NCBI GenBank assembly: GCA_017428565.1
Contig: JAFRQP010000032.1
Span: 1 to 33,994, forward strand
DNA: 33,994 nucleotides
Reading direction: 5' to 3'
Origin: Oscillospiraceae bacterium
GTDB taxonomy: Bacteria; Bacillota; Clostridia; Oscillospirales; Oscillospiraceae
The notes under the pieces: generated by a model
The model's database searches: none
What the model was told of the DNA's origin: nothing
Seen by the model: only the letters and a program-made list of their open reading frames with translations
Program-made: the position numbers and the translations under genes
Part shown: positions 15,933 to 33,994 of the stretch, one piece after another
Layout: every line of letters begins with the position of its first letter
Numbering within the stretch: the stretch's first letter is position 1

Positions 15933-18900
15933 TCAGTGGATCACCACGCCCTGGCCGCCGGCCTTGACAAAGGTGGCAAGCAAGGTCACGTCCGTGCCGT
16001 CCACCTTGTCGTCGCCGCTCACGTCGCCGGAGTAGGGCACGATCCGCACGTTCAGGCCGCCGGCCTTCACGTAGGTGGCCAGCAGCGTCACGTCCGTGCC
16101 GTCCACATTGCCGTCGCCGTTCACGTCGCCGGGCAGGCGCCAGTGGGCGTAGACCATGGTGTTCTCGGTGAAGGTGGTCGCAGCCGTCACTTCGGTGGCC
16201 TGGCAGATGTGGAAGGCGTCTGCGGCAGGAGCCATATACCAGCCCAGGAACACCCAGCCGCCCTCACGGGTGGGCTCAGGCAGCTCGCCGATGGCGGCGC
16301 CGGCGTTGATTTCCATCGTTGCCGGATCCACCGTGCCCGCGCCGGCGTTGAAGGTCACCGTGACGGGGATGGGAACGCGCTTGACGTCCGTGTAGGTCTC
16401 GCCGTCCAGCTCAACCGTGGCAGTGATGACTCTCTCGTAGCCGTCGACCTCGGAAGTGATGGTCGCCTCCAGCGTCCGGGTGTGGCTCGCATCGTTGGCG
16501 CAGACGAAAGCGGCGGTGGCGCTGCTGTAATCCTCGGCCCAGGTCCAGGTGGGCTCGCCCCAGTCGTGGCCGGTGCCGGACACGTCAAACAGGTCGCCTT
16601 CGTCCAGGGCAAGCTCGTCGTTGCGCTCCAGGGTCATGATCTCACACGCGGCGTCCTCGCAGCCGACGGTGAAGTGGATGGTGACGATGGGTGCGCTCTG
16701 GTCGATGTAGTCATCCCCCTCGTCGGTGCTGCCGCGCACTTGGAAGACAGGAGGTTCATTGTTGCCCTTATTGGCGTAGCCGATGGTGATGACGCCCTTC
16801 TCCTCGTCCACGTGGACAGAGGTGAGCGTGATATCCTCGTTGGCCTCATAGCTGGCGTAGACCAGCGCATCGGGGTCATAGGCCAGGGCGATCAGGCCGT
16901 TGTGGCTCTCCTGATCCTCGTAGACCTCAAGGATCAGATCGCTGGGCTCGTCGCCCTCATCGGGTTCGACAACAGCAGTCTCGGGATCCGCCACGGGCAC
17001 TACGACGGGCGCATAGCTGCCGCGGAAGACCATCAGGCTGCCAGTGTAGGCGTCGCCCTCGTCGCCTTCGGCGGGCGCGGGCTCCTCAATGGGCTCCTCG
17101 GTAGGCGCGGGCTCCTCGGTGGGCGCGGGCTCCTCGATGGGTGCAGGTTCCTCGATGGGTTCCTCAGCGGGCGCGGGCTCCTCGATGGGCTCCTCGTCCT
17201 CAAGGTACTCGGCCTCCTCGCCGTTCTGAAGCCAATAGAACTGGAAGCCAAGGGCGGTCAACCGCTCGATGATATCCTCGGTCAGCAGCTGCTCGCGGGT
17301 GGCAACAGGACGGAGGTTCAGGGGCTCGATCTCGACCTCGCCCTCGGTCTCGTCGCCCACGTTGTTGGCGCCGGTGGTGCCGGGAGCGGCAATGCCGTCG
17401 ACGTAGACGCCGGCCACGGGCCAAATGTCCTCGCCGAAGTTGCCGGCGTTGTAGAGCTTGCCGGTGCTGGGCACGTAGATGATCAGCTGGCAATCCTCAT
17501 CGGTGGTGTGCGTCCAGTAGATACGGGTTCCGTCATAGTAGATGGACTGGTACAGGATGCTGGTGCCGATGCCGGTGTCGACCACCAGGCTTGGCGTGCT
17601 AAAGCTAAAGCCGGCGGAATTGCTGTAGCTTGCGGTGGTCTCCCAGATCTTGCCGGTCTCATCCAGGAAGTAGTAGCTGGCGGACTGGGTGCCAACCGCT
17701 TTGGCGCAGACAGCAGCCACATAGGCATCGCCCACATCGGTTGTGGTCAGATCCAGCAGAGCGTAAGGCAGTCCGGAGTACAGTGCGCTGGTGTTATCGT
17801 CGGGATCTTCGTGATCAGGAGTCAGGTTGCCCATGATCAGGTACTTGGCAAAGCCGTAGACTATGAAGTCCAAACCATAGTTCGCAGAGAAGCCGGTCAT
17901 GCCTCTTGCCATACCGAAAGCAGGCACGTAGTTGGTTCCGAACTCCGTCAGGGCATAGGTGCTGCGGTTGACGGTGTAGAGCACAGAGGTGTCGCTGGTG
18001 TCGCAGGTGCTGGCATACAGGGTGCTGGCGTCGAACATAAAGGCGTTGGTCAGGTAGGTGCCGACTTCGTTGTTGGTGGATTTTGTCCAGGTGGGCAGGT
18101 TGTTGGCGTTGAAGCTGGAAGCCCAGACCTTGCCCTCCTCGTCCCAAACAAAGGCGTTGAGCGTCTTGTTGACGACGACGACGGTCACGGGGCACTCGGC
18201 GTACTTGGTGGGATCGCCGTTGGCGGTGGCGCGGATGCTGGTCGTGCCGGCGCCCACGGCGGTGACGTGGCCGTACTCGTCCACGGTGGCGATGCTGGTG
18301 TTGGCGCTGGACCAGGTGACCGTGCGGTCAGAGGCGGTCAGCGGGAGCACCTTGGCGCTCAGATCCGCAGTGTTGCCCTTGTACAGATCCAGGCTCTCGG
18401 GCGTCAAGGTCACTTCGGACACGCCGTAGGGATCGATATCGAAGTTCTGCTCAACCTTCTGGAAAAGGTATACGCTGTTGGTGGCGGTATTGAGGCTGAA
18501 GGTGTTGCTGTAGTAGCGCAGATAGTAGACGGTGGTGCTGGTCCAACTGCTGACCGACATAGTGAGGTAGTTGTTGGCGCCATTCCAGGTCCAGTCTCTG
18601 CGGCTGGTGTCGGTTGTGATGGTCAGGTTATTATTGTTGCTGCGGCGCAGGTAGTAACCGCCGTTATTGAAGGTCCAGGTGCCGCTGGTGCTGCCGTTGC
18701 CGACTGTCCAGACGGAGGTGCTGGCCACATCTTCGGTGGCAATATAGGGCTTGCCCTTGGTGCCGCTGTCGCCGGCCTTCACCGTGACGGCATTGGTCAG
18801 CGTCGTGGTGGTGCGGTGACCCAACACATAGGCAGAGCCGGTGGCCATGGTGTTTGCAATCACATACTCCTCGCCGGGAGTCAGGGTATTGGTCTGGATG

Positions 18901-21900
18901 TAAATGGTACGCTCAACGTGGTTGTTGTCGTTGACCTTGATGGCCATGGCGGCCTCGTTGCCCGCGTAGTCGCCGGCAAAGACGGCCACATAGCCCATGG
19001 CGTTGGCAATGGCATCGGTGGCGTCGATGGTGGTGCTGTACTCCGCCTCGCCGGGGGCGAACTCGCTGTACACAACGCTGCCGTCCAGGGACAGGATGGC
19101 CACATAGGCCAGGGCCCGGTCGTCGACGGCGGTAACGGTCAGGTCGCTGCCGCTCAGCTCGGCGCTGACGATCTGAGGATCGGTGTTGTCCACCACGAAG
19201 TCATAGCCCACATAGGCGCCCTGCCCCAGCACGTTGCTCTTGAGCAGGGTATCGAAGCCGGTCTTGTCCAGCATGCCGCCGCTGGCGCTGGTGTAGTCGT
19301 CGTTCACCAGCATGGCGTTGTACTCGGGGATGGCGTAGAAGCCCACGCGGAAGCGGTCGCCCTCCGCCAGGCCGTAGGCGCTGGGTGCCTTGTTGATGCT
19401 GTAGAATTTCTGGGTCAGGCCGTTCCAGGTGCCCGTGCTGGGCTGGTACCAGATGCCGCCGACCTCGTTGCCGGTGACGGTGGAGCTGAGGATCTCGGTG
19501 ACCTGGTGGTCGCTGTCCAGCCTGGAGACGGCGAAGCCGGTGGTGCCGGCGGCGCGGACCAGGTTATAGGCGATGCGCACCATGTTGGTGTTGCTGTTGA
19601 TGGCCAGACGGTCGGCGGGGAACTCGTTCTCCACCATGTAGGGGTTGCCGCTGAACATCACGTTGGCGCCGTTCATCTGAACGGTCAGATAGTTGGTATT
19701 GTTGTTGCGGGTGTAGTTCACCTGCTGGCTGCCGTAGAGCTTCTCGGTGTAGGGAGCGGTATCGAACATGGTGGCGTCCGTCCAGGAGCCGTAGAAGCCC
19801 AGGATGGGGATGGAGTGCTCGTCCGCATACACCGCGCCCTCTTCGGTGGTGGTGTCGCAGGTGACATAGGTGAAGCCTTCCAGATAGGCGCCGCCCTCAA
19901 AGTAAAGGTCCAGATCTTCCTTCTCGTCGGCGGGCAGGGTGATGCGCACCACGCAGTTTCGCTTGCCGTGGGCGGGCACCACGCCGGCGCCGTAGCCCTC
20001 GCTCTCCTCAGACTCCCAGCCCAGGAGCAGATAGGCGTCATAGGACGTGATCTCGCCGTCCTCGTCCAGGTCGGCGACGGTCAGATCGACCTCGCTCTCT
20101 TCCTTCTCGCCGGTCAGGTAGTCCAGGATGGCCTGGGCGTCGTCCTGATCGGTGTCGCCGTCCCGGTCCACATCGTGGCCGTCCTCAACGGGGGCGCTGC
20201 CCTCGATGGGCTCCCACCAGCAGGTGCCGCTGGCGTTCAGGCTAATGGTGCCGCGGGACATGAGCAGCTCGCCGCTGGCATCTTGCCCGATGCCTTGGGT
20301 AAACATGTCGGTCTCCACGTTGAAGTGCAGATCGTCGTCGCTTAGGTTGTAGACGGTGAAGCCGAAGCTGTAGTCGCCCGTTCTGCCGGGGTCGTCGCCC
20401 AGCTCGACCTTGACCTTACCGTCGGCAGCGGCGCCGGTCTTGCCGGTGAGGCCGCTGTTGGTGGGAGCCATCATGATGACGGAGTTGGAGGTGACTGCCC
20501 TGCTCACGTCCGCAAGGCCTGCGCCCTGCTGAAGGATGGGCAGATACTCGCCGCCGGGGGCCATGGGCGTGGCGGTGGACATCATCAGGCTCTGGGCGAT
20601 GGCGCGGGCGCTGAAGCCGGACAGGGCCGGGCACTTGGAGGCCAGGTTGTTCTCGCGCTGATACTCAGCCAGCACGGCGGTGAGGCCCGCGATGTGGGGA
20701 GCCGCCATGGAGGTGCCGCTGAAGCTGACATACTGGGTGGAGCCGCCCTCGGTGCCGCCGGAGGGCTTGTTGGCCGTGCCGTAAACCGACCAGATATCGC
20801 CGCCGGGGGCGGTGATCTCGGGCTTCATCAGCAGGGAGCCGGGGACGCCCCAGGAGCTGAAGTCGGTGATGGTGGCCTCGCTGCGCTCGATCACCACCTC
20901 GGTCTCCACATTGGTGACCTGCACGCTGCCGGTGTAATAGGTGATGCCGTTGACCGTGTGGGCGGTGCTGGCGGCCTTGATCTTATTGGCGTCCTTCAGC
21001 GAGATGGACACCATGGGGAAGGTGCCGGTGTAGTCCGACAGATTCATATAAATGGCGCCGTCCGCGCTGTTGGCGACGATAACGGCTTTGGGGCTGTAGC
21101 TCTTGGCGTTGTTGCCCTTTTCGGAGAAGGACAGGTCGCCGCGATTGACGATCACAACCTTGCCGGACAGGCTCAGCGCACCGTTGACCGCGCTGTAATC
21201 CTCCGGCGTGCCGGTGGCGTCAATGTACACATAGCTGTAGCTGCCTGCTATGGTCTTGAGCTCGGGATTGGTGTAGGTGGTACCATCTTCCTCGTTGCCG
21301 GTGGACTCATAGTAGTACACGTCCTGATTGCCGTTGAAGTTCATGGGCGTGCCCTTCTGCAGGGTGTTCTGGGCAGCGGCCACGCAGAGGCTGTTGATGT
21401 AGGTACCGGGGCTGCCGCCGGTGTGCATGGAGACGTCCTCCAGGTACAGGTAGCGGTTGTCGGTATTGAAGGCCAGGTCGTAAGCGTTGCCGGCGGAGAT
21501 GGACAGCACCATCTTGGTGTTGTGCTCCCCGTTGGCCCAGCCCAGGATCAGATCCTGATAGCTGTTGTCGAAGGTCCAGCCCTGCGCGCCGGAGCCCAAA
21601 GACAGGTTGGCCACATCCGCGCCCAGGACGATGGCGTCCTCGATGGCGACCATGTAGTCGGAGTCGTAGGCGCCGCCGCCGGAGCCGAAGACCTTCATGA
21701 TCAGCAGCTGCGCGTCGGGCGCCATGCCCACGGCGCTGACGGTGGAGGCGGCGTCGTTATGGGCCGTGCCGATGTAGCGGTTGGCCGCGGCGATGCCGGC
21801 CACGTGGGAGCCGTGATCACCCTCGGTGTCATGCACGTGGTCGATGGTGGTATTGTGGTCAACGTAGTTGTAGCCGTATGGGATTTTGGCGCTGACATAG

Positions 21901-22751
21901 TTGCCGCTCTTGCTGTTGAGCTGGCTGGCCAGGGCCTGAACCTGCGCTCTGGTCATCAGCTCGTCGGTAGCGCCGGCCAGACCCACGGAGTAGGTAAAGG
22001 GCTCCTCCGCGAAGGACTGGTGGCTGGTGTCGATGCCGGTATCGATGATGGCAATGCGGCTGCCCGCGCCGGTGTAGCCGGCGGCCCAGGCGGCGGTGGC
22101 GCCCACCATGTTCTCGCTGGTGTTGGCAGTCTCGGGATCAGCGGTCTCGCCCTCCATGGGCAGATACTGATTCTCCCGCTGGACGCTCTTGACGCCGGGG
22201 ATGGCCGCGATCTTCTCCATCTCGCCCAGGGTCACGTTGGCGGAAATGGCGTTGACCGCCAGGGTCAGGTTCCACTTCACGTCCAGCTGGTGACCGATGA
22301 CGCTCTCGATCTGAGCGGTCATCACGTCCTGCTGGGACCGCAGCCCGTCGCGATAGGCGATGGCGGCGGAGTTGGTGCCGATCCCGTCGGCGGAGAAGCC
22401 GGCCCCCAGAGTAGAGGGAGCCTCCAGGAAAATGGAGACGCGGACCACCTGGTCCAGGTCTACCTCATCCTCGTTGGTGAGGCCCTCGGGAAGCTCTTCT
22501 TCGTTTTCGGGTTCCTCGATACCCAGCTTCCGGATGTTCAGCTTATCCGGGCTGATCTCGATGATTTCCAGATCTCCGTCTTCGGGTTCCGGCTCTTCCG
22601 CGGGCTCTTCCGGCTCCAGGATCTCATCCTCTTCCGGCGCTTCCGCGGCAGCCTCCCCCTCGCCGTCGTCCGCGAAGCCTGTCACACCAAGCGACAGCAT
22701 CATCACGACCGCCAGCAGCAGAGACAGCAGGCGTTTCCATGTTTTGCTCAT
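15933..22751 (-). CDS. Giant secreted subtilisin-like (S8) protease with C-terminal dockerin
   Basis: 2272 aa. Seen in order: signal peptide (1-27); acidic EEP-rich linker (30-100); propeptide/inhibitor-I9-like region (about 100-195); S8 catalytic domain with Asp237 (IAIIDTGID), His313 (DHGSHVAG), oxyanion Asn421 (SAGN) and Ser680 (FSGTSMAAPH), and a PA-type insert (about 500-610); an Fn3-like region interrupted by a dockerin-like EF-hand pair (about 855-915, DRDGDTDQDD and DLDEDGEITSYD); a Big_2 Ig-like domain (about 1448-1521); a beta-propeller-like or unknown region; Pro/Glu repeats (about 1851-1898); an InlB-B-like GW domain (about 2133-2204); and a type I dockerin (about 2205-2271, GDVNGDGNVDGTD and GDVSGDDKVDGTD). 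It is lactocepin-like in plan. There is no LPxTG or SLH anchor, so retention is probably through dockerin-cohesin binding. Start: ATG 22751 with GGGAGG upstream. Confidence 0.93.
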   Translation of the reverse strand: MSKTWKRLLSLLLAVVMMLSLGVTGFADDGEGEAAAEAPEEDEILEPEEPAEEPEPEDGDLEIIEISPDKLNIRKLGIEEPENEEELPEGLTNEDEVDLDQVVRVSIFLEAPSTLGAGFSADGIGTNSAAIAYRDGLRSQQDVMTAQIESVIGHQLDVKWNLTLAVNAISANVTLGEMEKIAAIPGVKSVQRENQYLPMEGETADPETANTSENMVGATAAWAAGYTGAGSRIAIIDTGIDTSHQSFAEEPFTYSVGLAGATDELMTRAQVQALASQLNSKSGNYVSAKIPYGYNYVDHNTTIDHVHDTEGDHGSHVAGIAAANRYIGTAHNDAASTVSAVGMAPDAQLLIMKVFGSGGGAYDSDYMVAIEDAIVLGADVANLSLGSGAQGWTFDNSYQDLILGWANGEHNTKMVLSISAGNAYDLAFNTDNRYLYLEDVSMHTGGSPGTYINSLCVAAAQNTLQKGTPMNFNGNQDVYYYESTGNEEDGTTYTNPELKTIAGSYSYVYIDATGTPEDYSAVNGALSLSGKVVIVNRGDLSFSEKGNNAKSYSPKAVIVANSADGAIYMNLSDYTGTFPMVSISLKDANKIKAASTAHTVNGITYYTGSVQVTNVETEVVIERSEATITDFSSWGVPGSLLMKPEITAPGGDIWSVYGTANKPSGGTEGGSTQYVSFSGTSMAAPHIAGLTAVLAEYQRENNLASKCPALSGFSARAIAQSLMMSTATPMAPGGEYLPILQQGAGLADVSRAVTSNSVIMMAPTNSGLTGKTGAAADGKVKVELGDDPGRTGDYSFGFTVYNLSDDDLHFNVETDMFTQGIGQDASGELLMSRGTISLNASGTCWWEPIEGSAPVEDGHDVDRDGDTDQDDAQAILDYLTGEKEESEVDLTVADLDEDGEITSYDAYLLLGWESEESEGYGAGVVPAHGKRNCVVRITLPADEKEDLDLYFEGGAYLEGFTYVTCDTTTEEGAVYADEHSIPILGFYGSWTDATMFDTAPYTEKLYGSQQVNYTRNNNTNYLTVQMNGANVMFSGNPYMVENEFPADRLAINSNTNMVRIAYNLVRAAGTTGFAVSRLDSDHQVTEILSSTVTGNEVGGIWYQPSTGTWNGLTQKFYSINKAPSAYGLAEGDRFRVGFYAIPEYNAMLVNDDYTSASGGMLDKTGFDTLLKSNVLGQGAYVGYDFVVDNTDPQIVSAELSGSDLTVTAVDDRALAYVAILSLDGSVVYSEFAPGEAEYSTTIDATDAIANAMGYVAVFAGDYAGNEAAMAIKVNDNNHVERTIYIQTNTLTPGEEYVIANTMATGSAYVLGHRTTTTLTNAVTVKAGDSGTKGKPYIATEDVASTSVWTVGNGSTSGTWTFNNGGYYLRRSNNNNLTITTDTSRRDWTWNGANNYLTMSVSSWTSTTVYYLRYYSNTFSLNTATNSVYLFQKVEQNFDIDPYGVSEVTLTPESLDLYKGNTADLSAKVLPLTASDRTVTWSSANTSIATVDEYGHVTAVGAGTTSIRATANGDPTKYAECPVTVVVVNKTLNAFVWDEEGKVWASSFNANNLPTWTKSTNNEVGTYLTNAFMFDASTLYASTCDTSDTSVLYTVNRSTYALTEFGTNYVPAFGMARGMTGFSANYGLDFIVYGFAKYLIMGNLTPDHEDPDDNTSALYSGLPYALLDLTTTDVGDAYVAAVCAKAVGTQSASYYFLDETGKIWETTASYSNSAGFSFSTPSLVVDTGIGTSILYQSIYYDGTRIYWTHTTDEDCQLIIYVPSTGKLYNAGNFGEDIWPVAGVYVDGIAAPGTTGANNVGDETEGEVEIEPLNLRPVATREQLLTEDIIERLTALGFQFYWLQNGEEAEYLEDEEPIEEPAPAEEPIEEPAPIEEPAPTEEPAPTEEPIEEPAPAEGDEGDAYTGSLMVFRGSYAPVVVPVADPETAVVEPDEGDEPSDLILEVYEDQESHNGLIALAYDPDALVYASYEANEDITLTSVHVDEEKGVITIGYANKGNNEPPVFQVRGSTDEGDDYIDQSAPIVTIHFTVGCEDAACEIMTLERNDELALDEGDLFDVSGTGHDWGEPTWTWAEDYSSATAAFVCANDASHTRTLEATITSEVDGYERVITATVELDGETYTDVKRVPIPVTVTFNAGAGTVDPATMEINAGAAIGELPEPTREGGWVFLGWYMAPAADAFHICQATEVTAATTFTENTMVYAHWRLPGDVNGDGNVDGTDVTLLATYVKAGGLNVRIVPYSGDVSGDDKVDGTDVTLLATFVKAGGQGVVIH

Positions 22752-22767
22752 AGTGTTCCTCCCTTGC

Positions 22768-22790
22768 AGAGCCGGGCTTTTCCCGGCTCT
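22768..22790 (-). promoter_or_regulatory. Hairpin just upstream of the protease ribosome binding site
   Basis: A nine-bp stem AGAGCCGGG / CCCGGCTCT (22768-22776 with 22782-22790), in the 5' leader of the protease mRNA and about 5 bases from its GGGAGG. There is no T-run after it on the minus strand, so it is not a terminator. It could influence translation or mRNA stability. Confidence 0.55.
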
Positions 22791-22868
22791 CGTGTATAGG
22801 CCGACCGGACTTGATTACTTTACATTCATAAAGTTTCCCATTGATCCCATCGCGTCCCTTAAAATGAG

Positions 22869-22897
22869 ATTATATACGAGTCCGCTTTATTTCGCAA
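22869..22897 (-). promoter_or_regulatory. Promoter of the dockerin protease
   Basis: On the minus strand TTGCGA (22892-22897), 17 bp, TATAAT (22869-22874), giving a leader of about 110 nt. The rest of the 339-bp gap (22752-23090) holds the promoter of the divergent MoaE-like gene and no gene. Confidence 0.7.
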
Positions 22898-23053
22898 GAG
22901 TTTTTTCCTCGCAAAAAGGGGAAAAAGCGCCCGTTCCGGGCTCCGTTTTCCGTCAAAACAGACAGTTTTTCCGGGCTTTGGGCAATCCTCCCAAATCATG
23001 TAAAAAACTTCCGGCAAAAACGGCAAAGGGGGGCTGTTTTCCCGCCAGAGCTG

Positions 23054-23062
23054 TGGTATAAT
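23054..23062 (+). promoter_or_regulatory. Extended -10 promoter of the MoaE-like/hydrolase pair
   Basis: TGGTATAAT is a perfect extended -10 motif, 29 bp before the ATG at 23091. The expected -35 position shows no match to TTGACA, as is usual for extended -10 promoters. Confidence 0.6.
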
Positions 23063-23090
23063 GGAAAAAATAAAGGAAAGGTTGATGTTC

Positions 23091-23486
23091 ATGAGCAAAG
23101 CCGTCCCCTCCGTCGACGCCTGGCTGCGGGAGGCAAAGGCGGATCCCTCCGCCGCAGGCTGCGGCATGTACCTGGTTCACAACGGCACCGTCCGCCAGAC
23201 CGCCCGGGCCCGGGTACGTCAGGGAGATGAGAACGCCGCCCCCGTGCGGGGGATGCTCTTTTCCTACGACCGGGAGAAGCTGGAGGCCGCCGTGGCGGAG
23301 GCCCGGAGTCTGCCCGGGATCTTCTATGTGCGGGCCTGGCTCAACGAGGGCGAGCTGGGCCTGGGGGACGACATCATGCTGGTGCTCCTGGGCGGCGACA
23401 TCCGCCCCCATGTGGTGGACGCGCTGCAGCAGCTGGTGGGCCGGATCAAAAACGAGTGCGTGCTGGAGCAGGAGCTGAGCGTATGA
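23091..23486 (+). CDS. MoaE-like protein (molybdopterin synthase large-subunit family)
   Basis: 131 aa. MoaE with MoaD converts precursor Z to molybdopterin. Seen: the family-like GMYLVHNGTVRQTAR (about 25-39), LGLGDDIMLVLLGGDIRPHVVDALQQLVGRIKNEC (about 89-123). The Lys in RIKNEC matches E. coli Lys119, but the second catalytic Lys (Lys126, in PFWKKE) is Gln here. No moaD, moaA, moaC, mogA or molybdoenzyme gene is in the window, so cofactor synthesis is uncertain. Such proteins are often annotated MoaE in anaerobes. Start: ATG 23091 with AAAGGAAAGG 9 bp upstream, preferred over upstream in-frame ATGs at 23061 and 23085. Its stop overlaps the next gene's start (ATGA). Confidence 0.7.
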   Translation: MSKAVPSVDAWLREAKADPSAAGCGMYLVHNGTVRQTARARVRQGDENAAPVRGMLFSYDREKLEAAVAEARSLPGIFYVRAWLNEGELGLGDDIMLVLLGGDIRPHVVDALQQLVGRIKNECVLEQELSV

Positions 23487-24908: not shown

Positions 24909-25754
24909 TCAGCCGAAGGCGATGACCTCGCTGATGGCAGTGTCCTTCCACCGCGACTCCGAATCGTAGGCGGAGAGGATCGTGATCTTCACATAGCTGG
25001 TCGTGACGGCGCGGGAGAGGGCAAGGTCCTTCCCGCCGAAGCTGTCCGCCAGGACAATCGTGCAGCTCTCGCCCGTCGAAAACGCAAAGCGAAGCTCGCA
25101 GGGTCTGCCGTTCAATCGGTATGCCGCCTCATCCATGGTATACCCGGGAAAGATCCGGAGCACGGAAACCGATGTGGGCCCATCGAACCAGAGCGTGATG
25201 CTCTCCCCTTCCCCCAGGCCCTCCACGCCCTCCTGCCAGGAGGTGTCCGTCCTGCCGTCGATGGCATACGAGGGGGGAAAGTCCCCGTATTGCTTATCCG
25301 ACAGGTAAGAGGTGGCGGCAGCGCTGGTGAAGCTCCGCTGCGTCAGCTGTCCGGTGCCGCCGGAGAAAAACCACATCGACAGCGGTTCCGGCGTCGGCGC
25401 GGGAGTGGGGGTGGCGGGGTCCACAGGGGTAGTCGTAACGGCAGCTTGCGCCGGCGAGGGCGATGGCTCCCCCGCGACCTCCGCGGCGGGCTCTTCCGCG
25501 GAAGGCTCCTCCGCGGCGGGCTCCGGGGGCACGGATGTCTCGGGGATCGATATCGGCGTGGGGAGGCCACCCTCCGTCTTTCCCGCGTCCGCTGTGCCGC
25601 GGCCGCCGAGGAAGTGGATGGCCACCACCAGAACGATCAGGCAGAGCACTCCCATCGCCGCCAGCAGAAAAGGCATGACGCCGGAACGCCTGGGCCCGCG
25701 GTCCTCCCCGCGGCTCTCCTCCTGCCAGTCTTCGTATCGGTTGTTGTTCGACAT
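24909..25754 (-). CDS. Membrane-anchored discoidin / NADase-type glycan-binding domain protein
   Basis: 281 aa. Seen: a polar cytoplasmic N-terminus (1-26), one membrane segment (27-49), a long outer linker rich in Pro, Glu, Ala and Thr (about 60-125, EEPSAEEPAAE, TPTPAPTPEP), and a C-terminal beta-sandwich (about 145-281) with YAIDGRTDTSWQEGVEGLGE, ITLWFDG, VLRIFPGY and NGRPCELRFAF. This pattern matches the F5/8-type (discoidin) modules annotated as NADase-type glycan-binding domains. Known modules of this kind bind carbohydrates. The ligand here is unknown, and no enzyme domain is attached. Start: ATG 25754 with AGGAGG 8 bp upstream. It is transcribed divergently from the giant LRR gene across a 300-bp gap and may act at the same surface. 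Confidence 0.82.
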   Translation of the reverse strand: MSNNNRYEDWQEESRGEDRGPRRSGVMPFLLAAMGVLCLIVLVVAIHFLGGRGTADAGKTEGGLPTPISIPETSVPPEPAAEEPSAEEPAAEVAGEPSPSPAQAAVTTTPVDPATPTPAPTPEPLSMWFFSGGTGQLTQRSFTSAAATSYLSDKQYGDFPPSYAIDGRTDTSWQEGVEGLGEGESITLWFDGPTSVSVLRIFPGYTMDEAAYRLNGRPCELRFAFSTGESCTIVLADSFGGKDLALSRAVTTSYVKITILSAYDSESRWKDTAISEVIAFG

Positions 25755-25826
25755 GGCGCTGTCCTCCTGCGGTGGAAATCGGGTTTTGCCCCGGAGCATC
25801 TTCCCGGGGGATCCCTTAACGGTAAA

Positions 25827-25855
25827 ACTATAACAGAAGCCCGGCAAAAAAACAA
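25827..25855 (-). promoter_or_regulatory. Promoter of the discoidin-type gene
   Basis: On the minus strand TTGTTT (25850-25855), 17 bp, TATAGT (25827-25832), with TGT directly before the -10 (extended -10 form). The remainder of the gap 25856-25984 has a long-range inverted repeat, GCGTTTCGGCGG near 25856 with CCGTCGAAACGC near 25910, and no gene. Confidence 0.6.
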
Positions 25856-25984
25856 GCGTTTCGGCGGCAGGCGCCGTTTCTCATCCGGCGGAGACCTCTG
25901 TGGGCAGGCCGTCGAAACGCCCCCCCAGACCGGGGAAGCCTGCAAAAGATGCTTTGAATCAGGGCTGGACAAGAATGGAAAAAC

Positions 25985-26013
25985 ATGATACATTTAGAGT
26001 GGTAATGTATAAA
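25985..26013 (+). promoter_or_regulatory. Promoter of the giant LRR gene, with palindrome over the -10
   Basis: ATGATA (25985-25990), 17 bp, TATAAA (26008-26013). The -10 is the left half of a perfect 14-bp palindrome, TATAAATATTTATA (26008-26021), in an unusually AT-rich patch. A protein binding that palindrome would block the start site. The AGGAGG ribosome binding site is at 26041. Confidence 0.5.
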
Positions 26014-26054
26014 TATTTATAGGTAGTTTTGTATAACGCAAGGAGGATGCGAGC

Positions 26055-29000
26055 ATGAAGAGCACCAAACGCATTTTCAGTCTGCTGCTGGCGCTGCTGA
26101 TGATGGTGAGTCTGCTGCCGACGCCTGCCCTGGCGGAGGCTGCCCCGGCCTTCACCCTGCAGCCGGAGAGCGGCAGCCACGCTCCCGGTGAGCGCTATCT
26201 TCTCACCTGGGAGCTGAACCGGACCCCGGATCGGCTGGAGCTGACGCGGGAGGAAAACCCGCGGGTCGCCGAGGGCGTCGACCCCTACGAGGAGGACGAA
26301 GCGATTCTCGTCCCCTTGCAGGAGCTGGACCCCGCGGCCGACGAGCTGGAGCTGAGCGCTCCGGCGGAGGAGACGGTTTTCCGTCTGCGCGCCTGGTACG
26401 GCGAGGAGGCGCTGGTCAGCGAGGGCTTTACGGTTTCCATCGATCCCGCAGGGGCCGACGCCCTAGGCGGCCAGCCCGCGGACGGGGAGGAAGGGCTGTC
26501 GAGGACGCCAGCCCCGGCGGAGGAGCCGGAGGAGCCTGTCATCCTGAGCGAAGCGAAGGATCCCGACGGAGATTCTTCGTCGGCGGAGCCGCCTCAGAAT
26601 GACGCAGCTGAACTCGATGTCCCAGACGGTGCGGGGGACGAGCCTGCGGCAGAGCCGCGGCCCGACGAGCCGCAGGACGCCTATGCCTTTGTCACCCAGC
26701 CCCAGAGCGGCTCTTTTGACCCGGACACCCAGAACTATATGGTTTCGTGGAGGACAAGCTTTACTCCGGTCCAGGTGCTTGTTCAGCTGCAAGCTTCCTC
26801 CGATCATTGGCAAACCTACAGCACCCTGACCATGGGCCTTCAGCAGAGTCTGAGCACGACCATCAGCAACGCGGGGTGGTCACAGGCGCGGGTCTTTCGC
26901 ATTCTGGCCTATTACGGCTCCGGAGAGGAAGAATACGTTCCCAGCGTCGAGTTCACCGTCAGCCCCGCCAACGCGTATCGCTTCACCACCCAGCCACAGG
27001 ACGGCACCGTGGCGCCGGGCGGGAGCCTGACCTTCACCTGGGAGACGAATTTCAACCCGGTCAAGGTGGAGATCGTCAGAGACGACCTTACTACCTATTT
27101 CGGTGGCGAATCGCACGATTATATTGTCCTTGCCTCATTGGCCGGATCGAAAACCTCACACACGTTGAGCTATGACGAGCTGTCTATCTTAGGCTCGGAG
27201 GATACGATCCTTGTGCGCGCCTACTACGGCAGCGGAGAGCAGGACTATGCGGAGAGCCGCGCAGTAAAAGTCACCGTTGTGGCGCGCGCATTTACCGTCC
27301 AGCCTACCGGCGGCACCGTGGCGCCGCGCGGGAGCCTGACCTTCACCTGGGCGACGAATTTCAACCCGGTCAAGGTGGAGATCGTCAGAGACGACGTTAC
27401 TCATTATTTCGGTGGCGTAGATCATGAGTATACTGTCCTTGCCACATTGGCCGGATCGAAAACCTCACACACGATGAGTTATGACGAGCTGTCTATCTTA
27501 GGCTCGGAGGATACGATCCTTGTGCGCGCCTACTACGACAGTGATTCCTTTGTTAGAAGCGACCCGGCAGATATCACGCTCGTATCGCGCGCCTTCATCG
27601 TCCAGCCCATCGGCGGTCACGTGGAGCCGGGCGGGACCCTGACCTTCACCTGGGAGACGAATTTCGACCGGGTCAAAGTGGAGATCGTAAGAGACGACGT
27701 TACTCATTATCTCGGTGGCGTAGATCATGAGTATATTGTCCTTGCCACATTGGCTGGATCGAAAACCTCACACACGATGAGCTATGACGAGCTGTATGCG
27801 TTAGACTCGGAGGATATGATCCTTGTGCGCGCCTACTACGACAGCGATTCCTTTGTTCGAAGCAGCCAGATAGATGTCACGCTCACTTCGCGCGCCTTCA
27901 CCCTCCAGCCCACCGGCGGCGAAGTGCCCGTGGGTGCCAGTCTGACGACCACCTGGGCGACAAATTTTGCGCCTGCCAAGGTGGAGATCGTAAGAGAGTC
28001 CGTATGGTTTGATCTCGTGAATGAGTACCATGATTACACCGTGCTGGCCACAGTAGACGGGGCGGAGACCTCATATCCCCTGCCCTTTGTCCTGCTGGAC
28101 TCCTTAGGCCCCTTGGAATCGATCCATGTACGGGCCTACTACGGGACCGCAGAGAATCGCTACATCAAGAGCGACCCAATCTCCTTCACCCTTGGAGCGG
28201 AAAATGTCTCCGGCTACTGCGGCTATACGCATCCGGAGGACGCGAGCTGGGTCTTTGCCGATGGTGTCCTGACCATCAGCGGTGAGGGATATATGGCGGA
28301 CTACAACTCCGACGCCGAGGTTCCCTGGCGGTACCTGTCCGAAAATATCCACACGGTGGTGGTGGAGGAGGGGATACTCGGCGTGGGCGACTACGCTTTC
28401 AGCAACTGTTCCGCCCTTGCCACGGTCTATCTGCCCTCCACCCTGATCGTGATCGAAGACTATGCCTTTGACGGCTGCCCGGCGCTGGCCGACGCGAACA
28501 TCAACATGAGCCAGCAGGAATTCAGCACCAATGTCACCTGGGACAAGACGAAAAACACCGGCCTGCGAGACGCGGAGAAGCACTTTACCTTCATCGCCGA
28601 GGGCCAGGCGGGGCCGAACCTCACCTGGAAGCTCACGAACGACGGCATACTCAGCTTCTCCGGCTCCGGCGCCATGTTTAACTGGACCAGCTCCGAGCCC
28701 GCCCCCTGGTACCCCTACCGCAGCAGCGTCACCCAGGTGCGGCTGGCGAAGGTCACCACCGTCGGCGACTATGCCTTCCGGGGCTGCACCAAGCTCAGCT
28801 CCGCCAGCTTCCCCTCGGATCTGACGTATCTTGGCGTTCGCGCCTTCGCCGGCTGCAGCTCTCTGGCCGCCGTATACTGGGCCGCCCCCAGCTACACCAA
28901 CCTGACGGAGATCCCCGCCGCCTGTTTCTCCGGCTGCACTGCCCTGCAGAGCTTTACCGTTCCCAAGAAATGCACCGTGATCGGGCAAGGCGCTTTCTCC

Positions 29001-32000
29001 GGCTGCGATGCGCTGACCACGGTGAGCTTCCCCGAAGGCAGCGCCCTGACCACCGTGGGCAAGAGGGCCTTCTACAGCTGCGATAATCTCAAGAACATCA
29101 GCCTGCCGGAAGGCGTGACCAGCCTGGGCGACGAGGCCTTCTATAACTGCAAGAGCCTGACAAGCTTCCCCCTGCCCTCCACGCTGACCAGCCTGGGCGA
29201 ATACTGCTTCTCCGGATGCAGCGCCGTCACCGGCGTGGTCACCATCCCCGCCGGAGTCGCAGAGATCCCGAATCGCTGCTTCCTGGGCTGCAGCGGCTTC
29301 TATGAGCTGGCGCTGAGCCCCGGCACCAACCAGATCGGACCCTACGCCTTCTACGGCTGCAGCAAGCTGACCCAAGTGGACTACGACGGCTTCCGCGTCC
29401 AGTGGGAGCAGGAGACCACCCTGGACAGCAGCGGAAACGCGGCGCTGATCAACGCCCACTTCTCCTGGCTCTTCCGGACCGGAACGCTGTCCGGCGACGG
29501 CGTGCACTGGTCCCTCTACGGCGGCCCCGGCAAGCTGGAGATCTGGGGCAGCGGGGCGACGCCCAACTGGCCCGGCACCCCCGAGGCAGCGCCCTGGTAT
29601 GCCTACCGGGATTACATTCAGATCATCGATGTGCATGCCGGCGTCACCAAGATCGGCACCTATGCCTTCTCCAACTGCGCCTCCCTCACCACGGTCTATC
29701 TCCCGGACAGCCTTACGCTGGTCGGCGGCGCCGCCTTTCTCAATGATCTCGAGCTGGCGGACGTCTGGTACAGCGGTTCTCTGGTCGAACGCCAGGCGAA
29801 GCTGAGCATCGATACCCCCAACTACCCGCTGGAATCCGCCCAGTGGCACTATACCGAGATCGGCGGCAGCGTTTACGGCGACGACGGCGGCACGGATCTG
29901 AGCTGGCTCCTGGATGAAGACGGCACCCTCCGTATTTACTGGGATGAGGACAGCATGGATCAGGGCGAGATGGCCATCCCCGACTACAACGACTACCGCG
30001 ACACGCCCTGGTATCAGTACGGCACCGGCAACGGCCTGATCTTCCCCATGATCACCTCCATCCAGGTGGACGAGCTGGTGACGGGCATCGGCGACTATGC
30101 CTTTGCCGGGCTGGATGAACTGACAGACGTGCAGATCGCTTCCTCGGTCACCAGCATCGGAGAGGGGGCCTTTATGGGCTGCGGCAGTCTGGTGAGCGTC
30201 ACCATTCCCGACACGGTGGAGACCCTGGGGGACAACATCTTCTGGGGCTGCGGCAACTTGGAGACCGCGACCCTGCCCGCCGGGATCACGGAGATCCCCT
30301 CCGGGACTTTCTACGGCTGCGAGGAGCTGACCACGGTCTACCTTCCCGGGACCCTTGAGAGCATCGGAACCAATGCCTTCAGCGGCTGCACCAGCCTGAC
30401 AGACATCTATTTCAACGGGACCTCCGCCCAGTGGGCCGCCATCGAGCTCAATCCGGGCAACGATCCGGTGAACAGCGCCACGATCCACTTCATGCCGCCG
30501 GAGATCGCCGTGGACGCCGTGAACTTCCCCGACCCGGCCTTCCGCGCCTATGTGGCCCAGTACATCGACCGGGACGGCAGCGGCTACCTGGACGATTATG
30601 AGCTGCAGGAGGCCAATGTCATCTACGCTTCCAATCTGGGCATCCAGTCCCTGCAGGGCATCGCCTTCTTCTACAATCTGACCCATCTGGACGTCAGCGG
30701 CAACCCCCTCGGCGGAAGCCTGGATCTCACAACCAACCCCCTGCTGCAGAACGTGAACGTCAGCAACTGCGAGCTGAACGGGCTGGAGCTCACGGGTCTC
30801 ACGCACCTGAACACGCTCCTCCTCTCGGACAACGATACCGGCATGAGCGCGCCGGATCTGAGCACCAATCTGGCCCTGGAGATCCTGGACTGCCATAACT
30901 GCGACGGCATGGAGGGGCTGGATCTCAGTGCCAACGTCAATCTGACCGATTTGGACTGCAGCTGGAACCAGCTGGAGAGCCTGGATCTGAGTGCCAATAC
31001 CGAGCTGCAGCAGCTCAACTGCAGCCACAACAGCCTGACCACGCTGGATCTGAGCGCCAACACCGAGCTGCGGCAGGTGTTCTGCAACAACAATGTCCTC
31101 ACCGATCTGGAGCTGGGACAGCGGCACTACTCCTTCATCACCCTCAGCTGTTACGGCAACGATCTTTCCTTCCTGGATCTTACCGGCTGCCCCCGTCTGC
31201 GGGACGCGGTGCTGGAGGGCACCGTCAGCGTCACCGATCAGTACGTGGAGCACCGCATTGGCGCGGACTATGTCCAGTCCGACCCGGACACCGTTCTGAA
31301 AGCCGCCTCGGAGGGCATCCCCGTTGACGCCGAGCACTTCCCCGACCCGGCCTTCCGCGCCTATGTGGCAAACGAGCTGGACCCCAACGGCGACCTGTGG
31401 CTGACGCCCCAGGAGCTGGCGGCGGTGGAGGACATCGACTGCAGCGACAGGGGCATCGAGGATCTTACCGGCGTGGCGTGGTTCAGCCGGCTGCAGACTC
31501 TGGACTGCAGCGCCAACAACCTCACCGCCCTTTCCTTCAGCGGCACCCCCCTGCTGAAGGAGCTGGACTGCAGTCTGAACGAAGAGCTGTCCGCGCTGGA
31601 TCCGAGCTCCCTCAGCCGGCTGGAGGTGCTGAACTGCTACGGCTGCCCGCAGCTGACGCAGCTGAACGTGAGCGCCAATATGAGCCTGCATGAGCTGGAC
31701 TGCCGCGAGTGCGCGCTGACCGGCCTGACGCTGGGCCTGCAGGAGGATCTGTGGTATCTGGACTGCAGCGACAACGCTTTGACCGTTCTGGATCTCAGCG
31801 GCTGCTCGGCTGCCCTGCAGAATCTGATGTGCAACGGCAACGCCCTGACCGCGCTGGACCTCAGCGCCTGCCCGGGGCTGAGGACCCTGGACTGCTGGGA
31901 TAACGAGCTGACCGGCCTGGATCTGAGCCAGAATCAGTTCCTGATCATGGCGGACTGCCACGACAACGCCCTGACCGTGCTCTTCCTGGGGCATCAGCCC

Positions 32001-33994
32001 TATATGAAGAGGCTCTACTGCCAGCACAACAGCCTGACCAGTCTGGATGTCATGGATTGTCCCTATCTGCTGGATCTGGTGCAGACCACGGAGCCCATCG
32101 GCTATGAGGACTATGTGTACTATCTCAAGGACGACTGCGAATTCGATCTGGATCCCGATGTGACGCTGATCCAGGACCACGAGGGTATCCCCATCGACGC
32201 CGAGCACTTCCCGGATCCGGCCTTCCGCGCCTACGTGGCCGCCGAGCTGGATCTGAGCCACAACGGCTGGCTGACCGAGGACGAGATCGCGGAGGCGACG
32301 GATATCGTCTGCGACGGGCTGGGTATCGTCTCCCTGCAGGGCATCCACTACTTCACCGCCCTCAGCTATCTGGACTGCTCGAACAACCAGATCGCAGCGA
32401 TGGATCTGAGCCAGAACCCGGCGCTGAGCTATCTGGACTGTAGCGGGAACCCGCTGACCGCCCTGAACGTGAGCGGCAACGCCGCGCTGAGCTATCTTAC
32501 CTGCAGCAGCTGCGCCCTGACCAGCCTGGATCTCAGCCAGAACTGGGCGCTGACCTCGGTGTTCTGCGATTACAACGCGGAGCTGACGGAGCTGCTCCTG
32601 CCCCCCGTGGAAACGCTGAGCTGGCTGTACTGCAACAACTGCGCCCTGACGAGTCTGGACCTCTCCCGCTGCACCGGTCTCACCACCGTGCACTGCGACA
32701 ACAACGCCCTGACCGAGCTGATCCTGGGCGAGCAGCTGCTGCTCAATCATCTGTACTGCCAGCATAACAGCCTGGCCCGCCTGGACATCTTCAACTGCCC
32801 GCTGCTGATGGAGCTGGCGACCAACGGCACCGTCAGCACGGCCGACGGGGTGACCACCTACACCGGCAACGTGGTGCTCTGCGTGGACGAGATCACCGTG
32901 CTTGTCGAGGACCACGACGGCATCCCCGTGGACGAGGAGCACTTCCCCGACCCGGCCTTCCGGGCCTATGTGGCCGATCATTGCGACACCAGCGGCAACG
33001 GCTGGCTCAACGAGGCGGAGATCAACGCGGTGAGTTCTATCAACGTGAGCAACAAGGGCGTCGAGACCCTGCAGGGCATCCAGTACTTCACCTTGCTGGA
33101 AGAGCTGGTCTGCTACAACAACAGTCTCACGGAGCTGGATCTGGAGGGGCTGAACCTGCTGCATTATCTGGACGCCAGCCGCAACCCCTTCACGACCCTG
33201 GATCTCAGCGCCTACGGCTCGCTGGGCATGGTGGAGCTGCAGGGCACGCCCAGCCTGACCAGCCTCAACGTCTCCGGTCTGAGCCAGCTTGGCTACCTGG
33301 ACGTGAGCGCCTGCGGTCTAACCGCGCTGGACGTGAGCAGCTGCCGTAGCCTGTACTTCCTGGACTGCTGCAGCTGTCCGGCGCTGGACAGCTTGACTCT
33401 GGGCTGGAACGAGGAGCTGAACTGCTTCTACGCCTACAACACCGAGAATCTGAGCGAGCTGGACTTCACCGGCTGCCCGGCCCTGGCCGCCGCCTGGCTG
33501 GACGGCCCGGACAAGGTGGAAAACGGCGTCGCATGGTACTACGGCACTCAGGAGCTGCCCTGCGAGATGGCCCTTGACCCGGACCAGGCGGTGCTTGCGA
33601 CGAAGACGATCACCGTCACCGTCCGCTCCGCGGCGGAGTCCCCGGACGGCGAGAGCGTGGTGGAGATCCCCGGCAGCGGCCAGTACCAGAGCGGCCAGAC
33701 GCTCACGCTGAGCGCCCCCGCTGTGGCGGGCTACAGCTTCCAGGGCTGGTACTGCGGCGGCGAGCTCTATTCCCAGGCGGAGGAGATCAGCTACGCCGTC
33801 ACCCTGTACAGCCCCGATGAGGTGGAGCTGGTGGCCCTCTACGCCAGCAATCCCTACATCCCCGGCGACATCAACGGGGACTGCAATGTGGACGGCACGG
33901 ACGTGGTGCTGCTGGCCACCTATGTGAAGGCCAGCGGCAGCGGCGTGACCATCGTGCCCGGCTCCGGCGATGTGAACGGCGACGGCAGGGTGGA
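26055..33994 (+). CDS. Giant secreted Ig-like / BspA-LRR / EF-hand-LRR protein with dockerin (cut by the window end)
   Basis: At least 2646 codons, open in one frame to the window end. Seen in order: signal peptide (1-27, ALA cleavage); a divergent Ig-like unit (about 32-140); an acidic linker with an in-frame palindromic insertion (162-183); another divergent unit (about 213-305); four close Ig-like repeats of about 101-103 residues (about 308-714); BspA-type LRRs (about 716-1476; IGDYAFAGL, IGTYAFSNC type); four modules (from about 1479, 1756, 2046, 2289), each opening with HFPDPAFRAYV plus an EF-hand-like loop (canonical in the first, DRDGSGYLDDYE) and followed by LRRs of LDLSxNxxLxxLDC type; an InlB-B-like domain (about 2514-2596); and the start of a type I dockerin (GDINGDCNVDGTD, then GDVNGDGRV at the edge). 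Probable surface adhesin or binding protein. Start: ATG 26055 with AGGAGG 8 bp upstream. Confidence 0.9.
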   Translation, partial: MKSTKRIFSLLLALLMMVSLLPTPALAEAAPAFTLQPESGSHAPGERYLLTWELNRTPDRLELTREENPRVAEGVDPYEEDEAILVPLQELDPAADELELSAPAEETVFRLRAWYGEEALVSEGFTVSIDPAGADALGGQPADGEEGLSRTPAPAEEPEEPVILSEAKDPDGDSSSAEPPQNDAAELDVPDGAGDEPAAEPRPDEPQDAYAFVTQPQSGSFDPDTQNYMVSWRTSFTPVQVLVQLQASSDHWQTYSTLTMGLQQSLSTTISNAGWSQARVFRILAYYGSGEEEYVPSVEFTVSPANAYRFTTQPQDGTVAPGGSLTFTWETNFNPVKVEIVRDDLTTYFGGESHDYIVLASLAGSKTSHTLSYDELSILGSEDTILVRAYYGSGEQDYAESRAVKVTVVARAFTVQPTGGTVAPRGSLTFTWATNFNPVKVEIVRDDVTHYFGGVDHEYTVLATLAGSKTSHTMSYDELSILGSEDTILVRAYYDSDSFVRSDPADITLVSRAFIVQPIGGHVEPGGTLTFTWETNFDRVKVEIVRDDVTHYLGGVDHEYIVLATLAGSKTSHTMSYDELYALDSEDMILVRAYYDSDSFVRSSQIDVTLTSRAFTLQPTGGEVPVGASLTTTWATNFAPAKVEIVRESVWFDLVNEYHDYTVLATVDGAETSYPLPFVLLDSLGPLESIHVRAYYGTAENRYIKSDPISFTLGAENVSGYCGYTHPEDASWVFADGVLTISGEGYMADYNSDAEVPWRYLSENIHTVVVEEGILGVGDYAFSNCSALATVYLPSTLIVIEDYAFDGCPALADANINMSQQEFSTNVTWDKTKNTGLRDAEKHFTFIAEGQAGPNLTWKLTNDGILSFSGSGAMFNWTSSEPAPWYPYRSSVTQVRLAKVTTVGDYAFRGCTKLSSASFPSDLTYLGVRAFAGCSSLAAVYWAAPSYTNLTEIPAACFSGCTALQSFTVPKKCTVIGQGAFSGCDALTTVSFPEGSALTTVGKRAFYSCDNLKNISLPEGVTSLGDEAFYNCKSLTSFPLPSTLTSLGEYCFSGCSAVTGVVTIPAGVAEIPNRCFLGCSGFYELALSPGTNQIGPYAFYGCSKLTQVDYDGFRVQWEQETTLDSSGNAALINAHFSWLFRTGTLSGDGVHWSLYGGPGKLEIWGSGATPNWPGTPEAAPWYAYRDYIQIIDVHAGVTKIGTYAFSNCASLTTVYLPDSLTLVGGAAFLNDLELADVWYSGSLVERQAKLSIDTPNYPLESAQWHYTEIGGSVYGDDGGTDLSWLLDEDGTLRIYWDEDSMDQGEMAIPDYNDYRDTPWYQYGTGNGLIFPMITSIQVDELVTGIGDYAFAGLDELTDVQIASSVTSIGEGAFMGCGSLVSVTIPDTVETLGDNIFWGCGNLETATLPAGITEIPSGTFYGCEELTTVYLPGTLESIGTNAFSGCTSLTDIYFNGTSAQWAAIELNPGNDPVNSATIHFMPPEIAVDAVNFPDPAFRAYVAQYIDRDGSGYLDDYELQEANVIYASNLGIQSLQGIAFFYNLTHLDVSGNPLGGSLDLTTNPLLQNVNVSNCELNGLELTGLTHLNTLLLSDNDTGMSAPDLSTNLALEILDCHNCDGMEGLDLSANVNLTDLDCSWNQLESLDLSANTELQQLNCSHNSLTTLDLSANTELRQVFCNNNVLTDLELGQRHYSFITLSCYGNDLSFLDLTGCPRLRDAVLEGTVSVTDQYVEHRIGADYVQSDPDTVLKAASEGIPVDAEHFPDPAFRAYVANELDPNGDLWLTPQELAAVEDIDCSDRGIEDLTGVAWFSRLQTLDCSANNLTALSFSGTPLLKELDCSLNEELSALDPSSLSRLEVLNCYGCPQLTQLNVSANMSLHELDCRECALTGLTLGLQEDLWYLDCSDNALTVLDLSGCSAALQNLMCNGNALTALDLSACPGLRTLDCWDNELTGLDLSQNQFLIMADCHDNALTVLFLGHQPYMKRLYCQHNSLTSLDVMDCPYLLDLVQTTEPIGYEDYVYYLKDDCEFDLDPDVTLIQDHEGIPIDAEHFPDPAFRAYVAAELDLSHNGWLTEDEIAEATDIVCDGLGIVSLQGIHYFTALSYLDCSNNQIAAMDLSQNPALSYLDCSGNPLTALNVSGNAALSYLTCSSCALTSLDLSQNWALTSVFCDYNAELTELLLPPVETLSWLYCNNCALTSLDLSRCTGLTTVHCDNNALTELILGEQLLLNHLYCQHNSLARLDIFNCPLLMELATNGTVSTADGVTTYTGNVVLCVDEITVLVEDHDGIPVDEEHFPDPAFRAYVADHCDTSGNGWLNEAEINAVSSINVSNKGVETLQGIQYFTLLEELVCYNNSLTELDLEGLNLLHYLDASRNPFTTLDLSAYGSLGMVELQGTPSLTSLNVSGLSQLGYLDVSACGLTALDVSSCRSLYFLDCCSCPALDSLTLGWNEELNCFYAYNTENLSELDFTGCPALAAAWLDGPDKVENGVAWYYGTQELPCEMALDPDQAVLATKTITVTVRSAAESPDGESVVEIPGSGQYQSGQTLTLSAPAVAGYSFQGWYCGGELYSQAEEISYAVTLYSPDEVELVALYASNPYIPGDINGDCNVDGTDVVLLATYVKASGSGVTIVPGSGDVNGDGRV
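26538..26603. repeat. Palindromic repeat element inserted in frame in the giant gene
   Basis: The ends are GTCATCCTGAG and its near-inverse CTCAGAATGAC. The inner parts CGAAGGATC and GATTCTTCG are also inverse. The pattern GTCATYCTGAGCGAAGCGAAGRATC is a familiar genome-wide interspersed palindrome in many bacteria (reverse translation ILRFAQDD). Here it is 66 bp, a multiple of three, and adds about 22 residues (VILSEAKDPDGD...) to the acidic linker without breaking the frame. Confidence 0.75.
26976..28196 (+). repeat. Four tandem ~303-309-bp repeats encoding Ig-like units
   Basis: Marker segments for TNFNPVKVEIVRDD-type sequence begin near 27051, 27360, 27663 and 27966 (periods 309, 303, 303). 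Units 1-3 share long identical DNA stretches (for example around 27126-27225, 27435-27530 and 27737-27790), while unit 4 is clearly more diverged. This indicates recent intragenic duplication or conversion among the first three. Confidence 0.85.

Follow-up and report, generated by a model that had tools for sequence, protein, structure and literature searches.

Dockerin-bearing proteins of the window and its genome

The stretch of DNA analyzed here (the window, 33,994 nucleotides in full) is contig JAFRQP010000032.1 (C18) of GCA_017428565.1, a 2.69-Mb metagenome-assembled genome (MAG) of an Oscillospiraceae bacterium that comprises 105 contigs and is 83.66% complete. It holds genes for two large proteins, an S8 protease and a leucine-rich-repeat (LRR) protein, that both end in a dockerin; the subject of this study is the cohesin-dockerin system to which they may belong. 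The S8-protease gene (15933 to 22751, minus strand) encodes 2272 amino acids (aa) with a signal-peptide-like N terminus, read by eye, and has Pfam matches to S8 (141.7 bits), PA, Big_2, and Dockerin_1. Its catalytic domain (PF00082, aa 228 to 729; 20565 to 22070, minus strand; E 3.9e-41) is followed far downstream by a Listeria-Bacteroides repeat (Flg_new; 16143 to 16361, minus strand; 34.7 bits on the tail) and, directly behind this, by a terminal type I dockerin (15975 to 16133, minus strand). The LRR-protein gene (26055 to 33994, plus strand; LRR_5 E 1.8e-106) is cut by the contig end after at least 2646 aa, and its terminal type I dockerin (33861 to 33992, plus strand) is truncated by the window end and covers model positions 1 to 44 of 57. 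Both dockerins fit the motif GDxNGDxxVDGTDVxLLATYVKA given by the first-pass annotation and score above the Pfam cut-off of 22.9 bits for PF00404 (44.4 bits for the protease and 38.5 bits for the LRR protein); as that annotation also stated, no LPxTG or SLH anchor was seen in either protein. A GH2-family gene (13892 to 15733, plus strand), in which no dockerin was seen, is convergent with the S8-protease gene.

The window ends at ...GDVNGDGRV, within the LRR dockerin. The second repeat of this dockerin is not readable in the window, as the contig stops inside an exact 141-bp dockerin repeat (33854 to 33994, plus strand) that recurs at the 3' end of contig C100 and at the 5' ends of C100 and C47. 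Both candidate continuations of the gene encode the same C terminus, DGTDVTLLATYVKAGGQGVVIH, without an anchor. C18, C100, and C47 may adjoin one another, in a tentative order, with two LRR-dockerin genes in tandem. The two window dockerins had been called near-identical, which overstates a likeness of 73.3% over the 45 residues inside the window, or 80.6% over 67 residues with either continuation. The agreement at the recognition positions, which we take to be 10-11 (Gly-Thr) and 17-18 (Ala-Thr), holds in the readable repeats of both proteins, and Gly-Thr in both repeats holds with either continuation, although the second LRR repeat is then read from outside the window.

Listing the dockerin-bearing proteins of the genome gave eight long frames: two S8 proteases, three LRR proteins, and three beta-helix-like proteins. 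Besides the two window genes, there are four on contig C93 (frames ending at 36911, 45866, 54493, and 59164), one on C100 for an LRR protein, and one on C36 for a second S8 protease, which has an internal dockerin only. The terminal dockerin is common to unrelated secreted proteins. Pfam matched protease, LRR, beta-helix, and Listeria-Bacteroides-type repeat families in these frames (for the C93 frame ending at 54493, the scan began at residue 280) and no glycoside hydrolase family in any of the eight. The terminal dockerin of the window protease is closest to those of three C93 proteins (91 to 94% identity), while that of the window LRR protein is 95 to 100% identical to the other LRR dockerins. 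Misassembly as the origin of this likeness was rejected, since the C93 dockerins are complete and lie inside one contig. A profile of nine dockerins, one of them from the relative RUG502 and the others being terminal and internal dockerins of this genome, had solved cellulosomal dockerins as its top matches; a chance likeness to dockerins is excluded because the match to the solved CelS dockerin reaches E 6.7e-15.

A second dockerin and a cohesin-family module in the S8 protease

Two features of the window protease are additional to those of the first-pass annotation: an internal dockerin (20025 to 20177, minus strand; PF00404, 35.6 bits), whose recognition residues differ from those of the terminal one, and a divergent cohesin-family module (16596 to 17045, minus strand). 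Both were followed through a survey of 83 S8 frames from 77 loci in gut and rumen MAGs, to which the window protease, the C36 protease, and those of relatives G051 and G023 were added to give a set of 87 (G051 and L149 have the same cohesin-like segment; L137 and G019 are one genome, as are L140 and G046, with identical dockerins). An EF-loop match was present in all 83 frames of relatives. The module was found in 72 of the 87 frames; of the 15 without it, 14 are open and the remaining one is closed but short.

Pfam Cohesin matched 47 of 69 such modules at E<=0.01 (best 1.8e-10); the window module stays below the Pfam cut-off (18.9 versus 24.1 bits) and was not picked up at E<=0.01 by a custom cohesin profile. 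It matches the 69-module profile with E 3.7e-33, itself being one of the 69 rows. In profile comparison, the 69-row profile matched canonical cohesins with a probability of 93.6% (E 2e-7), whereas a profile of four rows gave a weak match (5.8%, E 0.0065); against the PDB, the 69-row profile reached an anchoring-scaffoldin cohesin (4ums) with E 9.6e-5, the other nine matches having E 0.07 to 0.9. By these comparisons the module is a divergent member of the cohesin family, a term we use because the 69-row profile matches cohesins, while the window copy lies under the cut-off and the four-row match is weak.

Such a module raises the alternative that the protease binds the dockerins of other proteins through its own cohesin-family module, so that protease, adhesins, and receptor are chained head to tail. 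The protease would then be a scaffold component like ScaO. There are precedents: ScaO and ScaP of A. cellulolyticus and C. alkalicellulosi (PMC6780208) and an A. mesophilus S8-peptidase protein with a Coh1-Doc1 end (PMC11557425) each unite a peptidase with a cohesin and a dockerin on a single secreted chain, and many proteins of the same genus as our bacterium carry a cohesin and a dockerin on one chain. The wide occurrence of the module in the S8 family also fits this idea. However, relatives that end in SLH, CWB2, or sortase signals and lack a terminal dockerin have the module just as regularly, so its presence does not depend on that dockerin, and both its divergence in the window and the weak four-member match argue against such a role. 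We therefore regard the chained arrangement as unlikely. The ScaO and ScaP hosts are cellulosome producers with many other scaffoldins, whereas no cellulosome was found here, and the window protease differs from that type in its divergent cohesin-family module and in a conserved extra internal dockerin; with its peptidase, two dockerins, and module below cut-off, it is a tentative candidate for the ScaO type, likened to it by description.

The C-terminal slot of the S8 protease family

Behind the cohesin-family module, the tails of S8 proteases vary. We compared 56 C-terminal tails, the window's and those of 55 relatives with closed frames; classes were assigned partly from motif reading by eye, and Pfam supplied family totals without member names (SLH 16, dockerin 7, CWB2 5, and Gram_pos_anchor 2). 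Among the relatives, 15 of the 55 tails end in a transmembrane-like helix and a basic tail, 14 of these with a sortase-like motif, and 8 of the 55 contain a domain of about 292 aa that is described below. In NCBIfam, the window protease comes nearest to a family of LPXTG-anchored serine peptidases (154 bits versus a cut-off of 1400). Since the same slot holds SLH, CWB2, or sortase-type signals or the ~292-aa domain in relatives, the terminal dockerin most likely takes the place of a surface anchor in this family. SLH-ended members (L155-L158, L161, L162, L164, L167, L170, L172, L175, L179, L186, and L189) form a natural anchor-swap series in which they stand beside same-family relatives that end in sortase signals, CWB2, or dockerins.

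A single-cohesin protein and the ~292-aa domain

The first-pass annotation had proposed a cohesin-dockerin surface complex and had named a genome devoid of cohesin genes as an outcome that would refute it. This outcome did not occur: the genome has one Pfam cohesin, on C93 (37049 to 37387; 41.8 bits, or 37.4 bits on the protein, versus a cut-off of 24.1 bits for PF00963). A profile of 13 same-genus cohesins matched it with E 1.5e-36, and the next match in the genome, a 14.4-bit fragment inside an LRR protein (E 0.06), was not accepted as a second canonical cohesin. Against the PDB, the same-genus cohesin profile had the scaffoldin cohesin 3kcp as its best match (E 8.6e-10). The C93 protein (586 aa) consists of a signal-peptide-like start, the single cohesin, a middle region, and the C-terminal ~292-aa domain, and its open frame begins 42 bases past the end of a dockerin-protein frame. 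Of the cohesin protein with signal peptide and wall anchor that was sought, the signal-peptide-like start was recovered; wall- or membrane-anchored cohesin proteins were found in relatives and not in this incomplete genome. The MAG encodes two sortases, and a Pfam search of it gave no SLH domain.

No multi-cohesin scaffoldin was found in the 84%-complete genome. As the sole canonical cohesin is a single module, a receptor would hold one protein at a time rather than a protease and an adhesin together, and the picture of the two docked side by side on one scaffold is not supported.

The ~292-aa domain ends four large secreted proteins of the genome: the C93 cohesin protein (C93:37820-38722), the C36 protease (C36:13888-14757), a Cna_B protein, and a 5'-nucleotidase (the remaining copies lie at C19:19957-20814 and C91:23037-23906). 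It often ends in YNQAANAYF. Its shared terminal position makes it a candidate surface-attachment part, and probably it acts as one.

Cohesin genes beside dockerin genes in relatives

In the genus loci, 10 of 17 single-cohesin genes (two G034 fragments counted as one) are immediately preceded by a dockerin gene of the same strand. In the closest relative, RUG502 (L118), whose protease is 76% identical to that of the window in the best segment and whose terminal dockerin is only 46% identical, a cohesin gene (Pfam, 54.4 bits) lies directly behind the dockerin-ended S8 protease; its product also bears the ~292-aa domain, cut by the contig end. In G030 the order is reversed, with a dockerin-ended S8 gene directly downstream of a single-cohesin gene. 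Of nine dockerin-ended S8 genes with flanks, four adjoin a profile-called cohesin (L118, L140, G023, and G030). As a control, the cohesin profile was run on every frame in the S8 loci that is 100 aa or longer: a separate cohesin gene stood by 2 of 7 dockerin-ended S8 frames (L118 and L140) and by 0 of 49 other closed S8 frames, looser cohesin-like candidates not having been sought systematically in the 49.

Some cohesin proteins of the genus carry ends of a recognizable anchoring type, namely, a C-terminal transmembrane helix with a basic tail in G021, G066, and G043 and a sortase-type end in G061. The cohesin-like protein downstream of the L137 protease is secreted and has a stalk followed by NPTTGD, a transmembrane helix, and a basic tail, that is, a sortase signal. 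A profile of the L137, L140, and L129 proteins and two G023 cohesins matched canonical cohesins with a probability of 93.9%, a score helped by the G023 rows. At L191 (8339 to 10177), the protease, which has a dockerin-like end, is followed by a secreted protein in which two cohesin-like beta domains were seen by eye and none by Pfam.

Dockerins and cohesins across the genus

Among 119 relatives, cohesins occur in 39 genomes, dockerins in 45, and both in 37; dockerins are thus present in 37 of the 39 cohesin genomes versus 8 of the 80 others (Fisher 1.5e-20, kinship ignored). Same-genus genomes have 1 to 4 Pfam cohesin matches each, mostly one per protein. The content of dockerin proteins was surveyed in 16 genomes of the same genus, of which seven are 90% complete or more, with a custom dockerin profile in loci around cohesins and at Pfam dockerin places (88 places in all). 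The resulting 83 frames leave out contig-end frames shorter than 100 aa and frames with undetermined residues; 8 of the 83 are without a Pfam dockerin match at 1e-5. Pfam found LRR_5 in 29, Peptidase_S8 in 10, CHAP in 4, transglutaminase cores in 3, and single lectins; a cohesin was found in 10 dockerin frames of a 31-frame subset. At E<=1e-5, no glycoside hydrolase family was found in any of the 83.

These counts bear on the alternative that the bacterium has an ordinary cellulosome, amylosome, or mucinolysome and that the genes for its scaffoldin and its carbohydrate enzymes with dockerins fall in the missing part of the MAG. With 105 contigs and an incomplete assembly, such a loss is conceivable, complexes of this kind are known in gut Clostridia (PMC12997984), and the GH2 gene adjoins the protease, though without a dockerin. 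Yet the absence of glycoside hydrolases from the dockerin frames extends to 16 genomes, including the seven nearly complete ones, and cohesins are few per genome, mostly one per protein. We therefore consider an ordinary complex very improbable, and that the carbohydrate enzymes are absent merely through incompleteness was rejected on the same 0 of 83. The earlier statement that no cellulase accompanies these dockerins thus holds for the eight frames of this genome and for the 83 same-genus frames.

Terminal dockerins are more alike within genomes (mean identity 0.63, 302 pairs) than between them (0.37, 3614 pairs), and those of our genome have a mean identity of 0.88 (15 pairs). Dockerin distances also followed cohesin distances in a Mantel test on 13 of the 17 dockerin-bearing same-genus genomes (r 0.72 to 0.81); left out were G019 and G046 (no Pfam cohesin), G034 (fragments only), and G043 (no RecA match). 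With RecA partialled out, the correlation in the 13 genomes was 0.73 to 0.81, with p at the floor of 5000 permutations, and that of dockerin with RecA was 0.12.

The uniformity within genomes could be produced by gene conversion alone, and the exact 141-bp repeat testifies to very recent sharing; both would fit dockerins that have no partner and serve as calcium-stabilized C-terminal caps, spread by duplication and gene conversion. Such caps would not be expected to have cohesin genes as neighbors, to co-occur and co-vary with cohesins, or to occupy the anchor slot of a protease family, all of which is seen here, and we hold this explanation to be quite unlikely.

Discussion

Our results make it reasonably probable that the window encodes part of a small cohesin-dockerin display system without carbohydrate-degrading enzymes, which would present a protease and adhesins on the outside of the cell. 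The S8 protease and the LRR and beta-helix-like proteins have the sequence of secreted proteins that end in one genome-specific dockerin. This dockerin would plug into a single-cohesin protein on the cell surface and so take over the function of the SLH, CWB2, or sortase signals found elsewhere in the protease family, as the shared slot indicates. In this genome the receptor would be the C93 protein, with its ~292-aa domain as the probable attachment part, given that the same domain takes the anchor slot in other proteins. The internal dockerin and the cohesin-family module of the S8 protease might be a second pair with a role of its own, inside one protease molecule or from one copy to another, which is speculative. 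On the substrate side, proteins or surface ligands in the gut could be the targets. Taken together, the data suggest that a genus of gut bacteria with rumen relatives uses a plug-and-socket arrangement for proteases and adhesins, not for plant-degrading enzymes.

Several observations weigh against this display system. The C93 cohesin protein has no SLH, LPxTG, or other recognized anchor or sortase signal, and its ~292-aa domain matched no family of Pfam or NCBIfam at the thresholds applied and no credible relative in the PDB. One receptor facing at least six terminal dockerins would imply competition. There is no cohesin gene beside the window S8 protease, where the adjoining gene is GH2 on the other strand; among the nine dockerin-ended S8 genes with flanks, L176 likewise has no cohesin neighbor, and three (L129, L137, and L191) adjoin a cohesin-like secreted protein that is not a Pfam cohesin. 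The co-occurrence count is not independent because the genomes are related. The covariation weakened when only dockerins unlinked to cohesin genes were used (9 genomes; partial correlation 0.61 to 0.63, p 0.002 to 0.003) and was not significant when G039 and G066 were also left out (7 genomes; 0.34 to 0.44, p 0.14 and 0.08). RecA, finally, is a single marker, and in G030 it lies in two frames.

A much wider generalization, which we regard as doubtful, would extend the display system to a whole genus of gut Clostridia. Cohesin and dockerin would there serve as a general noncovalent code that anchors giant proteases, BspA-type LRR adhesins, and lectins at the surface, and carbohydrate enzymes would have no part in it; each species would have one private, coevolving specificity, swapped as a set; the dockerin would be interchangeable with SLH, CWB2, and sortase signals, the ~292-aa domain would be the socket-carrying attachment module, and the protease family would add a second, built-in pair.

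The first-pass annotation considered this the best candidate in the window for an undescribed system, which is too strong, as cellulase-free cohesin-dockerin complexes (PMC12997984 and PMC11557425), dockerin-bearing LRR proteins and peptidases (PMC2930009), and the ScaO and ScaP type (PMC6780208) have been published. The mucinolysome of Limousia (PMC12997984) resembles the proposed system as a cohesin-dockerin complex of gut Clostridia without cellulases and with dockerin-bearing peptidases, and an LPxTG-anchored cohesin protein, cSca5, is modeled there as the wall attachment. It differs in its multi-cohesin scaffoldins and in the 21 dockerin-bearing carbohydrate-active enzymes (CAZymes) of strain ET540; in our genome no CAZyme with a dockerin was found and cohesins are single. 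Of the marks of a mucinolysome, dockerin-bearing peptidases are present here, and dockerin-bearing mucin-glycan CAZymes and scaffoldins were not found in the frames and genome scanned; of those of a cellulosome, neither a scaffoldin with several cohesins nor dockerin-bearing glycoside hydrolases were found.

Lachnoclostridium sp. MSJ-17 (PMC11557425), a noncellulolytic bacterium termed "scaffoldin-containing," resembles our case in its single cohesins, which have C-terminal transmembrane helices, and in its many dockerin proteins with almost no lignocellulose enzymes, but it also has a two-cohesin protein with a dockerin. Ruminococcus flavefaciens FD-1 carries 28 LRR and 16 peptidase modules on dockerin proteins (PMC2930009, Table 2), within a full cellulosome of 222 dockerin proteins. 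The complexes of C. perfringens, as reported in PMC12997984, share the single cohesin per protein and the lack of a classical scaffoldin, whereas all five of its cohesin proteins have glycoside hydrolase domains. A literature search, based mostly on titles and the openings of abstracts and reaching few subscription journals, brought up no recognizable description of a CAZyme-free, LRR-dominated, single-cohesin system, and it is this CAZyme-free, adhesin-rich, single-socket form that appears to be new.

If the display system exists as proposed, cohesin and dockerin would be a general display code for proteases and adhesins of gut bacteria, beyond the gathering of carbohydrate enzymes, and one that is exchangeable with SLH and sortase anchors inside a single protease family. 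It would give dockerins on nonenzymatic proteins, such as those with the LRR modules of R. flavefaciens (PMC2930009), a testable function. It would also call for caution in labeling every genome with cohesins and dockerins as cellulolytic, considering that 4333 human-gut MAGs are reported to have both (PMC12997984). New orthogonal plug-socket pairs would be on offer, and the ~292-aa C-terminal domain would become a new surface-attachment candidate.

Other features of the window

Between the two dockerin-bearing genes, the window encodes a protein (24909 to 25847, minus strand) in which an NADase-translocation F5/8 type C domain (PF25302, E 1.2e-19) lies behind a Pro/Glu-rich stretch.

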